DNA from: Flavobacteriales bacterium
GTDB taxonomy: Bacteria; Bacteroidota; Bacteroidia; Flavobacteriales_F; PHOS-HE28
Reading direction: 5' to 3'
Assembly: GCA_016788295.1 (NCBI GenBank)
Contig: JAEUSY010000001.1
Location: 1-64,000 of the forward strand
Length of the DNA: 64,000 nt
In this document: positions 25,802 through 34,012 of the stretch, in pieces
Position numbering within the stretch: the stretch's first letter is position 1
Layout: every line of letters begins with the position of its first letter
The notes under the pieces: model-generated
Databases searched by the model: none
Seen by the model: the letters and a program-made list of their open reading frames with translations, nothing else
Told to the model about the DNA's origin: nothing
Program-made: the position numbers and the translations under genes

Positions 25802-26506
25802 TCATTGCCCCTCGCCAGCGATCAACCGGAAGCCTTGGCCATGTACATTAATGATCTCCACGGAAGGGTCATCGCGTAGGTATTTCCGCAGCTTGGCGAT
25901 GTACACATCCATGCTGCGGCCACTGAAGTAGCTGTCATTTCCCCACACTTTCAGCAACGCCTCCGAACGTTCGAGCACCTTGTTCCGGTGCAGGCACAGA
26001 AGGCGCAACAATTCCGATTCCTTGGTGGTAAGGCGGCGCTCACCCGCAGGGGTACGCAGCACCTGTTTGCGCGGATCGAAGGAGGAATCGCCGAGCGCGA
26101 ACCGTTCGGGCTCGGGTTCCGGGACGGTCACCCCATTGGTACGGCGCAACACGGCATTCACGCGCAGGATCAGCTCCTCCATGCTGAAGGGCTTGGTGAG
26201 GTAATCGTCGGCACCGCTCTCAAAACCCATCAACGTATCCTGCTTCATGCTCTTGGCCGTGAGGAAAATGATGGGCGTTGTCGCATCCTTCTCCCTGATC
26301 TCACGCGCCAGGGTGAATCCGTCCTTCAGCGGCAACATCACATCCAACAGCAGCAGGTCGTGACCGCCGCGGTCATAGGCTGCTCTTCCGAGCGCCCCGT
26401 CAGTGCACAACTCCACCTGAAAGCCTTTGGCCCTTAGATAATCGGTCAGCATGGTGCCGAGGTTGGGGTCATCCTCGACCACCAATAGCTTCTTGGCTTG
26501 CGACAT
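25802..26506 (-). CDS. OmpR-family response regulator
   Basis: A 234-residue DNA-binding regulator. The ATG at 26506 (MSQAKKLLVVEDDP) overlaps the end of the kinase gene by 38 bases; the longer frame to 26722 lies inside the kinase gene and is rejected. The receiver domain has the acidic pair at residues 11-13, phosphoacceptor Asp55 (LLLLDVMLPLKDG) and Lys in FLTAKS. The winged-helix output domain (RRLTTKESELLRLLCLHRNKVLERSEAL ... SMDVYIAKLRKYL) fills the C-terminus. It is translationally coupled to its kinase. Confidence 0.93.
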   Translation of the reverse strand: MSQAKKLLVVEDDPNLGTMLTDYLRAKGFQVELCTDGALGRAAYDRGGHDLLLLDVMLPLKDGFTLAREIREKDATTPIIFLTAKSMKQDTLMGFESGADDYLTKPFSMEELILRVNAVLRRTNGVTVPEPEPERFALGDSSFDPRKQVLRTPAGERRLTTKESELLRLLCLHRNKVLERSEALLKVWGNDSYFSGRSMDVYIAKLRKYLRDDPSVEIINVHGQGFRLIAGEGQ

Positions 26507-27905
26507 GTTCAAATGGTAGGAAGATGTGGAAGGTACTGCCCTTTCCGGGAGCGCTGTCCAAGCGGATATGACCACCATGGCGCTCCACAACGGTTCGCAC
26601 ATAGCTAAGACCAAGGCCGAACCCCTTGGCATTGTGCACGTTGCCTGTAGGTATACGGTACAATCGCTCGAAGATCTTGCGCTGCTCCGATGCAGGAATG
26701 CCGACGCCATTATCGGTGACACTGATGGTCATGCCCTCCGTATTGCTGGAAGTAGCTATGGTGATCCGCGGCTCCGTGGCGGTGTACTTCACGGCATTGT
26801 CCACCAGATTGTACAACAGGTTCGTAAGGTGGATACGATCGCCCATGACCACATGGATCTCCGCATCCAAGCGCGTTCCTATCCGGCCATTGCCCTTGGC
26901 CACTCTTATGCTGCTGCCACGCACCACCTCCTCAACCAATTTGTGCATGTCCAATTCCACCGGCTTCAGCAACATGCGGCCTTGCAGGAGCACGGCGCTT
27001 TGCAATACATTCTCCACCAAGGCGCCCAGCCGCTTGTTCTCCTCGCGGATCATGCTCACATAGGTGCGCACCTGATCCTCGGTCTTGGGCATCGAAGGGT
27101 CGGATAATGCTTCGCAGGCCAAACCGATGGTACTGATCGGTGTTTTCAGTTCGTGGGTGAGGTTGTTCACCAGGTCCGTGCGGATCTCGCTGAGCTGTTT
27201 CTGCCGTCTGATCGTGCGCAGCGTATAAATGAACGCCAGTATGATGATCAGCGTGAAGAGCACGGCAGCGAACAACATGATCCCGGTGCCGCGCAATACA
27301 ATGTCGCGCTGATCGGGCATGCTCACATGCAAAAACACCGGCAGGCCGCTGATATCGTGTCGGAAAAGACGCTCCTTGTAGGGCGACGGCTGCAGCATGG
27401 GCACCGCAGGTTCGTGCCCTCCCAGCAGCAACGGCTCACCCACGTTTGTGAACACACCATAGGCCGTGGGTGCGGGAAGATCCATGGCTATGAACTCAGC
27501 ATTCAGTAGGGAGTCAAGCAGATCGGCATCAATGCGGTCGCGTGGATCACTTTCCGCACTTGAGCGGAGGATGTCGCGCACTACGTCCGTCACCAAGGCT
27601 TCATGATCCGCATCGGTGAGCCCTGTTGTTGACCCAAGATCCAGGAGCCCGGGGGCCGGTTGCGCATGGAGCGAATCAAGATGCTGGATCAACTGCTGAC
27701 CACCGGCATGGCGCCGCAAGCGGCCGATCCGCTCCTGCAGTTCCAGCCGGTCGCTCACGGCGAACAGCGCATTGTCCACGGATTGCTCGTACTGCGAGCC
27801 ACGCAACGCGATGGTCCTGCTGAACCACACCACCTGAAGGGACAACAGGCCGACCAGCGCTGCACAGAGCGCCACGAGCAATAGGACAGACCAACGTTTA
27901 TCCAC
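26469..27905 (-). CDS. Membrane sensor histidine kinase
   Basis: A 478-residue HisKA-type kinase. It has a TM segment at about 4-28, a periplasmic sensor region of about 180 residues without a recognisable domain, and a second TM at about 208-229. The HisKA domain carries phosphoacceptor His251 (NNLTHELKTPIS), and HATPase boxes follow (LLYNLVDNAVKYT, VTDNGVGIP, KGFGLGLSYV). The start is a GTG at 27905, supported by a -7 element four bases upstream. It is the first gene of a set with the overlapping response regulator and a TonB-like gene. The signal sensed is unknown. Confidence 0.92.
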   Translation of the reverse strand: MDKRWSVLLLVALCAALVGLLSLQVVWFSRTIALRGSQYEQSVDNALFAVSDRLELQERIGRLRRHAGGQQLIQHLDSLHAQPAPGLLDLGSTTGLTDADHEALVTDVVRDILRSSAESDPRDRIDADLLDSLLNAEFIAMDLPAPTAYGVFTNVGEPLLLGGHEPAVPMLQPSPYKERLFRHDISGLPVFLHVSMPDQRDIVLRGTGIMLFAAVLFTLIIILAFIYTLRTIRRQKQLSEIRTDLVNNLTHELKTPISTIGLACEALSDPSMPKTEDQVRTYVSMIREENKRLGALVENVLQSAVLLQGRMLLKPVELDMHKLVEEVVRGSSIRVAKGNGRIGTRLDAEIHVVMGDRIHLTNLLYNLVDNAVKYTATEPRITIATSSNTEGMTISVTDNGVGIPASEQRKIFERLYRIPTGNVHNAKGFGLGLSYVRTVVERHGGHIRLDSAPGKGSTFHIFLPFEHVASQEAIGGRG

Positions 27906-27909
27906 GCAG

Positions 27910-27917
27910 CGAAACTA
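27910..27917 (-). promoter_or_regulatory. -7 element (TAGTTTCG) of the kinase-regulator operon
   Basis: One mismatch to TAnnTTTG on the minus strand, four bases before the GTG start at 27905. Confidence 0.5.
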
Positions 27918-28002
27918 CCGGTGGCCCATGGGAGCGCCCACCCCTTAACGCATGTTAACGTTCGTTCTCAACTGGTTAACAGAACCCCGTGTTTTACTGC
28001 CG

Positions 28003-28010
28003 GACCTTTG
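28003..28010 (+). promoter_or_regulatory. -7-like element (GACCTTTG) ahead of a candidate small RNA
   Basis: The element is GACCTTTG in the + direction. The next 130 bases hold no open frame and end in a strong terminator. Confidence 0.4.
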
Positions 28011-28015
28011 CCAAT

Positions 28016-28142
28016 GCGATACCGCACCACGGTGAAAGAGCGTTGGGAATGGCGGTATCGATAATACCGGTGGACGGTAGGGTTTAGTCCTGTAAAAGGG
28101 CAACAAGGGGTTGAAAGGCCCCCGCCATGGCGGGGGCCTTTT
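28016..28142 (+). ncRNA. Candidate small RNA ending in a strong terminator
   Basis: Between the divergent kinase and aldehyde dehydrogenase genes, a promoter-like element (28003-28010) is followed by about 125 bases without a plausible reading frame. The segment starts with a perfect 9-base stem (CGATACCGC 28017-28025, GCGGTATCG 28052-28060) and ends in a terminator palindrome (28117-28138) plus TTTT. It does not end any protein gene on this strand, because the nearest upstream + gene stops at 25017. The class is unknown; it could also be an attenuator-like leader for the dehydrogenase gene. Confidence 0.45.
28115..28142 (+). terminator. Strong rho-independent terminator
   Basis: GGCCCCCGCC (28117-28126) and GGCGGGGGCC (28129-28138) form a perfect palindrome followed by TTTT. 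It lies 53 bases before the aldehyde dehydrogenase start with no protein gene upstream on this strand. Confidence 0.85.
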
Positions 28143-28178
28143 GACTTGGCATACGCTCCGTCACCGACCTACAGCCGC

Positions 28179-28186
28179 TACCTTCG
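28179..28186 (+). promoter_or_regulatory. -7 element (TACCTTCG) of the aldehyde dehydrogenase gene
   Basis: One mismatch to TAnnTTTG, ending nine bases before the ATG at 28196. Confidence 0.5.
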
Positions 28187-28195
28187 CCACGTACC

Positions 28196-29638
28196 ATGGA
28201 AGACATCCTCAATCTGGTCGGTGGCGACCTTGTCCCGGCCACAGGCAACACGTGGATCGATGTGCACGAACCATCCACAGGCAAGGTTTACGCGCGACTT
28301 GCCGATAGTGATGCACGGGATGTGGAGGCGGCCGTGCAAGCGGCTGAAGCGGCATTCCCGGCTTGGGTGGCCATGGGTCGCGAAGGCCGCAGCAATGTGC
28401 TGCTGCGTCTCGCCGCACTGATCGAGAAGGACCTCGAGGGCTTTGCCGAGGCCGAATCGCGCGATAATGGGAAGCCGGTGCACCTGGCACGCAAGGTCGA
28501 CATCCCCCGGGCGGTGGCCAACTTCCGATTCTTCGCAACGGCCATCCTGCATTTCAGCACCGAGGCCCATGTAATGGACGATGTAGCGGTGAACTACACC
28601 GACCGCAGCCCCATCGGTGTGGTGGGCTGCATCAGTCCTTGGAACCTGCCGCTCTACCTGTTCACTTGGAAGATCGCGCCTGCGCTTGCTGCCGGCAATT
28701 GTGTAGTGGCCAAACCAAGCGAAGTGACCCCCATGACCGCTTACCGGATGGCCCGACTTTGTGCAGAGGCCGGCATGCCGCCCGGTGTGCTGAACATTGT
28801 ACATGGCCTGGGCCCCAAAGTGGGTACCGCCATCACCGAACACCCTGCGGTGAAGGCCATCTCCTTTACGGGTGGCACACGAACGGGCCAAGAGATCGCG
28901 CGTGTGGCGGCTCCCCTGTTCAAGAAGATGAGCCTGGAGCTTGGGGGCAAGAACCCGGTTGTCATTTTCGCAGACTGTGATCTGGAACAGGCGTTACGCA
29001 CCACCGTGCTCAGTTCCTTCCGCAACCAAGGCCAGATCTGCCTGTGCGGTTCGCGCATCCTTGTGGAACGCCCACTGTACGAACGCTTCCGCGATGCTTT
29101 CGTGCAACGTGTGAAAGCCCTGCGGGTTGGAGACCCTCGTGATGCTGCAAGCGACCTTGGCGCCGTGGTTTCGGAAGGGCATATGGAAAAGGTGCTGTCC
29201 TACATCGACCTCGCCCGGGAGGAAGGTGGCCGTGTGCTGTGCGGCGGCAAGCGGGTGCAATTGGATGGCGAACTCCAAGGTGGCTGGTACATCGCGCCTA
29301 CGGTCATCGAGGGACTGGGACCGGCCTGCCGCACGAACCAGGAAGAGATCTTCGGGCCGGTGGTGACCATAGCGCCTTTCGACACCGAGCAAGATGCGCT
29401 CAGCGCTGCGAACGGCACCCCTTATGGGCTGGCCGCGGTGCTTTGGACCAGCGATGTGAAACGGGCCCACCGCATGGCGCACCAGCTGGAGTCGGGAATT
29501 GTGTGGGTGAACTGTTGGATGATCCGTGACCTGCGTACCCCGTTCGGCGGAATGAAGCAGAGCGGTGTGGGGCGCGAGGGCGGTGTGGAGGCGTTGCGTT
29601 TCTTCACTGAAGCGAAGAACGTCTGCATCAAGCTCTGA
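28196..29638 (+). CDS. Aldehyde dehydrogenase, probably 2-aminomuconate-6-semialdehyde/2-hydroxymuconic semialdehyde dehydrogenase
   Basis: NAD-dependent aldehyde dehydrogenase of 480 residues, the usual family length. Catalytic marks are Asn150 (SPWNLPL), Glu248 (LELGGKNP) and Cys282 (FRNQGQICLCG); the ICLCG form is typical of the hydroxymuconic/aminomuconic semialdehyde group. The C-terminal MKQSGVGREGG is standard. It would oxidise the ACMSD product 2-aminomuconate semialdehyde to 2-aminomuconate, fitting the dioxygenase-ACMSD pair 11 kb away. Substrate is inferred from motif and context; a different semialdehyde cannot be excluded. Confidence 0.88.
   Translation: MEDILNLVGGDLVPATGNTWIDVHEPSTGKVYARLADSDARDVEAAVQAAEAAFPAWVAMGREGRSNVLLRLAALIEKDLEGFAEAESRDNGKPVHLARKVDIPRAVANFRFFATAILHFSTEAHVMDDVAVNYTDRSPIGVVGCISPWNLPLYLFTWKIAPALAAGNCVVAKPSEVTPMTAYRMARLCAEAGMPPGVLNIVHGLGPKVGTAITEHPAVKAISFTGGTRTGQEIARVAAPLFKKMSLELGGKNPVVIFADCDLEQALRTTVLSSFRNQGQICLCGSRILVERPLYERFRDAFVQRVKALRVGDPRDAASDLGAVVSEGHMEKVLSYIDLAREEGGRVLCGGKRVQLDGELQGGWYIAPTVIEGLGPACRTNQEEIFGPVVTIAPFDTEQDALSAANGTPYGLAAVLWTSDVKRAHRMAHQLESGIVWVNCWMIRDLRTPFGGMKQSGVGREGGVEALRFFTEAKNVCIKL

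Positions 29639-33937: not shown

Positions 33938-34012
<75 letters not shown>

Follow-up and report, generated by a model that had tools for sequence, protein, structure and literature searches.

Organization of the locus

The window, i.e., the whole stretch of 64,000 nucleotides that was analysed, belongs to a genome assembled into 61 contigs that total 3.78 Mb. On its minus strand, a two-component operon is formed by the genes of an OmpR-family, RprY-like response regulator (25802-26497; closest NCBIfam model NF051850, with 297 bits against a cut-off of 370) and of a sensor histidine kinase (26469-27905), the latter recognized from its ORF and its HisKA and HATPase_c domains. An aldehyde dehydrogenase gene, recognized from its ORF and domains, lies on the plus strand (28196-29638); it stands outside the RNA unit described below, and it is preceded by its own -7 element, TACCTTCG at 28179-28186, as a preliminary description of this DNA had claimed. 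The name muconate dehydrogenase used there is only that of the nearest family, TIGR03216 (2-hydroxymuconic semialdehyde dehydrogenase); the score of 575 bits stays below the cut-off of that family (693), which makes this substrate assignment tentative. In most of the genus, the kinase and dehydrogenase genes lie side by side in divergent orientation. A -7-like element, TAGTTTCG at 27910-27917 on the minus strand, stands 4 nt ahead of the GTG start of the kinase gene (27905), and CGAAACTA/CGAAGCTA is conserved among many relatives. The kinase mRNA may be leaderless.

Divergently from the kinase gene, a small RNA of about 128 nt is predicted on the plus strand at 28016-28143 from its fold and from a covariance model. 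Its start (+/-3 nt) is deduced from the -7 promoter element GACCTTTG at 28003-28010 of the plus strand, which is one base off TAnnTTTG and is spaced as in relatives. The -7 element, the stretch without a frame, the 9-base stem and the GC-rich terminator reported in the preliminary description were all found where it had placed them. Indeed, the predicted fold begins with a 5' stem-loop (28017-28060) of 9 bp, in which CGATACCGC (28017-28025) pairs exactly with GCGGTATCG (28052-28060), followed by a small predicted hairpin, TACCG-GTGGA-CGGTA, at 28065-28079, near the place where other members carry a hairpin called here H2. The linker GCAACAAGGGG (28100-28110), singled out by pairwise identity among relatives as a candidate base-pairing seed, precedes an intrinsic terminator (28114-28143) whose perfect palindrome AAAGGCCCCCGCCATGGCGGGGGCCTTT (28114-28141; 12 pairs, loop CATG) forms a covarying helix in relatives and is followed by a short T run. 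This run counts four T; hence the terminator was missed by a simple scan that demands at least five T among eight bases.

Against dinucleotide shuffles, the fold of segment 28014-28145 has a z-score of -4.91, none of the 200 shuffles equalling it; without the terminator, the z-score is -2.23 and 6 of 200 shuffles do as well. No ORF of at least 80 aa was found from the kinase start to 28146. A 16-codon ATG frame, MRYRTTVKERWEWRYR, was noticed by eye from 28014; it begins at or before the likely transcription start and is without counterpart in relatives. No Rfam family matched the element at gathering score, and the sub-threshold matches (RsmY, Leu_leader, istR and others) were set aside as due mainly to the GC-rich terminator. 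The only Rfam family to reach its gathering score anywhere in the window is that of a tRNA gene at 33938-34011 (plus strand).

Distribution of the element in the genus

BLASTn searches with 28003-28112 found no match in the other 44 of the 45 genus genomes, the window alone being recovered; family- and order-level searches covered the same 45 genomes. Taken alone, this result would have suggested that the element is not conserved. When the spacer between the kinase and dehydrogenase genes was read by synteny, the same element was recognized in most genomes of the genus. A covariance model of the 3' part of the RNA (R1; 102 positions, 23 pairs) matches 30 of the 45 genomes with E <= 4e-12, at one place each. 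Among these 30 genomes, 28 had served to build the model, G002 is nearly identical to G001, and G027, which is outside the model, was matched at the same locus. At every locus that was read, the matched element adjoins this RprY-like two-component operon. Among 295 genomes drawn from the whole class and searched with stricter filters, R1 matched 8 of the 11 genus genomes and none of the 284 others at E <= 1e-6; weaker matches elsewhere (E from 1e-5 to 0.01) are probably terminators. According to these searches, the RNA element is real and apparently restricted to the genus. A generic repeated terminator was also considered and rejected, since CAACAAGGNGNYGRNNGGC has a single exact match in its own genome and is not a repeat; the linker-terminator pattern, with at most one mismatch, occurs 17 times in that genome against 6 for the reversed control.

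Two members depart from the general arrangement. In G021, about 50 nt of the 5' part of the RNA are gone, while the promoter, an H2-like hairpin, the linker and the terminator remain; this singles out the 3' module as essential. In G023, which belongs to the clade without ORF, both the boxes described below and the RNA are gone upstream of the kinase gene.

Promoter and TTAAC boxes

Three TTAAC half-sites (27945-27949, 27955-27959 and 27976-27980, i.e., 27945-27980 on the plus strand, with spacings of 10 and 21 bp) lie between the two divergent promoters and would be sites of the adjacent response regulator. This three-box pattern occurs once in the 64-kb window, where 0.02 occurrences are expected with up to 2 mismatches; for TTAACN5TTAAC, 0.01 are expected. 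The promoters of 29 element-bearing genomes were tabulated. All show TTAAC-type boxes 10 bp apart, the first box being degenerate in G044, and a further box stands 20-21 bp on in 27 of the 29, G001 and G002 being without it. In these 27 genomes, the -7 element begins 26-27 nt past the last box. The -7 elements of relatives mostly read TAnnTTTG or TAnnTTCG; those of G004, G026, G029 and G038, missed by the script pattern, were placed by eye. The flavobacterial promoter consensus given in PMC9723704 is TAnnTTTG.

Twelve genomes without the RNA were then examined for the boxes, ten of which are informative (the contig ends in G017, and G023 has no boxes). Boxes 1 and 2 are kept in all ten, one of the two half-sites often being GTAAC or TCAAC, and box 3 is found at its expected place in none. 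Since RNA-free genomes keep boxes 1 and 2 without box 3, we infer that boxes 1 and 2 serve the kinase promoter and that box 3 serves the RNA. The protein bound to these boxes would be the RprY-like regulator. RprY of Porphyromonas bound its own promoter, as described in PMC3646045, and a search by term of that source found no RprY binding motif.

Conserved core of the RNA

The positions GCAACAAGGNG of the linker have a mean pairwise identity of 0.91 among 17 ORF-less members (G002, nearly equal to G001, being left out) and of 0.96 among 11 members with a coding frame (G027 and G012 excluded). The rest of the unit is far more variable: identity falls to 0.32 (ORF-less) and 0.36 (coding) at positions 45-69 after the linker start, and to 0.28 and 0.36, respectively, in the 5' part of the RNA. 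In predicted folds, the linker is less paired than the RNA mean in 15 of the 17 ORF-less members; in the other two, G001 and G035, its pairing is slightly above that mean.

On alignment A1 (28 sequences), pairing of the terminator helix reaches 95.4%, with double changes at 8 of 14 pairs; on alignment A3 (29 sequences), which was aligned to the model and so leans towards it, pairing reaches 97.5%, with double changes at 9 of 14 pairs. For the whole structure, none of 500 shuffles attains the observed value on even one of five measures, and slid controls score much lower. The GC-rich hairpin, the covariation and the T run (four T in the window) expected of an intrinsic terminator were all found.

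Hairpin H2, just 5' of the linker, is less certain than the terminator helix. Between 64 and 65% of its cells are paired and 7-8 of its 9 pairs show double changes; it is absent from the RNAalifold predictions for A1 and A2. In an alignment-free test, its 3' arm is paired above the shuffle mean in 16 of 17 ORF-less genomes (p < 0.05 in 7), which are related and so not independent, and in 6 of 12 coding genomes (p < 0.05 in one). The window is the lone exception among the 17, H2 being absent from its own predicted fold. The refuting outcome named in the preliminary description, a lack of conservation of the two stems, was not observed: the terminator covaries over 28-29 sequences, whereas the 5' stem has a counterpart only in G044. 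In this nearest relative, an 8-bp equivalent with different letters occupies the same place; no general counterpart was found in the rest of the clade.

Coding relatives and history of the unit

In 12 element-bearing genomes, a frame of 67-246 aa lies between the -7 element and the linker, and G012 has a frame of 64 aa without the linker. By eye, the frames of the coding relatives start with a signal-peptide-like stretch. At its C-terminus, the protein of G039 carries a sorting domain of T9SS type A (TIGR04183, with 31.7 bits for a cut-off of 23; Pfam, 25.4 for a cut-off of 27). Those of G031 and G011 resemble this domain below cut-off, and the other 7 of the 10 proteins scanned have no match to it; several of the shorter proteins still end in LVIE. 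No ORF is common to the ORF-less members, and 5 of 17 are without any frame of at least 8 codons.

A quick tree was built from the kinase, the regulator and the dehydrogenase (44 rows, root not fixed). The 18 ORF-less genomes and G023, in which the unit is lost, cluster together with an SH-aLRT support of 100. Coding forms stand on both sides of the midpoint. The H2 region was also compared with the C-terminal codons of G039. The identity reaches 21/27 nt in G004, 20/27 in G003 and 23/27 in G008, with 0 of 1000 shuffles as good in each case; in G001 it is 16/27 (5 of 1000 shuffles), at another place. Over the 17 ORF-less genomes compared, the trace is not significant in the window (13/27), nor in most other members. 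Because the ORF-less members form a single group and traces of a coding end persist in three genomes, a loss of the frame is more likely than a gain.

Search for targets

The pattern CSCCTTGTTGC was found 23 times in the genome of the window against 8 for the reversed control; over 10 genomes, no consistent excess over the control was found outside that genome. Such matches to the linker complement are expected to some degree, since the codons of signal peptides are leucine-rich. The 22 matches other than the RNA itself (20 stretches) were scanned for nearby starts; six were inspected and two were followed in orthologues, wherever the locus was kept and the genome had the element (23 genomes for the first target, 11 for the second). 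In the genome of the window, the z-score of pairing is -5.75 for the first and -3.66 for the second. In orthologues, pairing does not stand out, except that the first target has a z-score of -2.29 in G043, where the pairing lies elsewhere, and an exact 7-mer stands at the same place in 2 of 23 genomes for the first (also in G021) and in 1 of 11 for the second (G000 only). Both candidates were rejected, as their complementarity is not conserved in orthologues. In the genome of the window, the start of a conserved 250-aa protein without Pfam match (L171:74-826, minus strand; G000 C13) is perfectly complementary to the linker over about 14 bp, a match that orthologues do not keep.

Interpretation of the element

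Judged by its sequence, the element resembles a trans-acting small RNA in having a promoter of its own, an intrinsic terminator and a conserved segment predicted to be accessible, the 11-nt linker, and in lacking a conserved ORF. Promoter, boxes, linker and terminator are visible in the DNA itself and conserved among relatives. The reading that we consider probable is that of an independent small RNA of about 128 nt, activated by the regulator through the boxes, with the linker as seed, and descended from a small-protein gene whose frame was lost. Under this scheme, the small RNA would be transcribed divergently from the RprY-like two-component operon, from a promoter probably activated by the response regulator of the operon through the three TTAAC boxes, and this primary transcript would end at the palindromic terminator. 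The mostly unpaired linker GCAACAAGGGG would be the functional core, acting most likely by seed pairing with target mRNAs, perhaps those of envelope or secreted proteins. The unit would descend from a small gene for a signal-peptide-like protein, still present in relatives; in the ancestor of the clade of the window, the frame would have been lost while the promoter and the 3' untranslated module were kept. Several points speak against this scheme. In the window, the -7 element is one base off consensus, H2 is missing from the predicted fold, and the coding-end trace is not significant, as in most other ORF-less members. Besides, RNAalifold does not recover H2, the linker is predicted to be slightly more paired than the mean in G001 and G035, and the two candidate targets are not conserved.

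Among the other explanations, the linker may be the site of an RNA-binding protein, as a sponge or a stability element, instead of a pairing seed. Such a role would suit a linker that is nearly invariant though two candidate targets lose their complementarity; we regard it as unlikely, since the architecture is that of pairing small RNAs such as Yfr1 and SgrS, and we know of no RNA-binding protein with such specificity in this group. It is somewhat less likely still that the unit is a relic, i.e., a promoter and a terminator left after gene loss, perhaps transcribed and without function. In favour of a relic, the coding origin of the unit is plain, boxes 1 and 2 persist in RNA-free genomes, where they probably serve the kinase promoter, and most of the 5' part is gone in G021. 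Against it, the promoter position, the linker and the terminator have been retained in 18 of the 19 members of the ORF-less clade around a remainder of near-random identity, the 11-nt linker stays 0.91 identical, and the terminator covaries.

That the product would be a very short ORF (MRYRTTVKERWEWRYR in the window), with the RNA as its mRNA, appears very unlikely. The 16-codon ATG frame at 28014 exists, and the coding relatives often have a similar FRY/YRYR motif (by eye), but the ORF-less members share no frame and 5 of 17 lack even one of at least 8 codons; moreover, the ATG of the window is placed at or before the expected start site, and G021 is devoid of the region. An attenuating or riboswitch-like leader of the aldehyde dehydrogenase, also put forward in the preliminary description, is the least probable of all. 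The RNA does lie directly upstream of the dehydrogenase gene, on the same strand, in the window and in most relatives. Yet in G001, G002 and G037 it stays beside the kinase gene while the dehydrogenase gene is elsewhere, without RNA, which contradicts that proposal. In G002, the RNA is followed by a convergent gene whose stop codon lies at the terminator, which excludes a leader in this genome and makes it unlikely in the window. Besides, the dehydrogenase gene usually has its own -7-like element near its start, RNA-free genomes included; the strict pattern is absent from 9 of 34 dehydrogenase spacers, several of which show TACCTTTCG-like variants by eye. The constant place upstream of the dehydrogenase gene that a co-transcribed cis-leader would have was not observed. 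Instead, it is the kinase locus that retains the promoter position, the 11-nt linker and the terminator throughout the genus, in agreement with the other proposal of that description, an independent small RNA. The regulator-like boxes, the conservation of the linker and the existence of relatives with a protein-coding version of the unit lay beyond the reach of that description.

The independent small RNA would be an element ordinary in kind and unusual in the clarity of its history. It may document the change of a protein gene into a gene for a non-coding RNA, with extant intermediates: a sorting-domain protein, reduced signal-peptide-like frames of 64-78 aa and a frame-less clade, all under the same promoter linked to the two-component system and nearly all with the same 3' module, which would probably have been a regulatory RNA before the loss of the frame. 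This history is put forward tentatively, as a serious possibility. To our knowledge, few small RNAs of Bacteroidota have been studied outside model genera. In the present case, the likely regulator is encoded by the adjacent operon, the core is defined and the history can be read. Provided that it is expressed, this RNA would illustrate how the 3' end of an mRNA becomes a stand-alone regulatory RNA once the protein is dispensable, the coding, reduced and non-coding forms coexisting in one genus.

Comparison with known systems

No description of the element itself was found in the literature on neighbouring subjects. Rfp18 of Flavobacterium is, as described in PMC9723704, a flavobacterial small RNA conserved in its genus, within a group using TAnnTTTG promoters; the likeness drawn here is limited to these traits. 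The architecture of a pairing small RNA is shared with Yfr1 of cyanobacteria, which belongs to another phylum and, as far as described in PMC6778093, has no tie to a two-component locus, and with SgrS. In the SgrS/SgrT system of enterobacteria, according to PMC4021124, the small RNA gene adjoins the gene of its own regulator, a 5' frame is present in some species and missing in Yersinia, the conserved pairing region lies between frame and terminator, and an extra hairpin precedes the terminator. Unlike SgrS, to which it has no Rfam match, the element of the window has a two-component system as its presumed regulator; its coding relatives encode signal-peptide-like proteins, and its pairing role is predicted.

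CpxP/CpxQ of enterobacteria offers a likeness in the way of working only. As described in PMC9438474 and PMC4817254, the gene of the periplasmic protein CpxP lies just upstream of a two-component operon that strongly induces it, and its 3' UTR, conserved above the rest of the gene, acts as a small RNA. RNase E, together with Hfq, releases CpxQ from the mRNA, whereas the RNA of the window's clade would be a primary transcript, since there is no reading frame there. A CpxQ-like 3' module behind a small secreted-type ORF, an ORF that the window lacks, is found in the 12 coding genomes of the genus.
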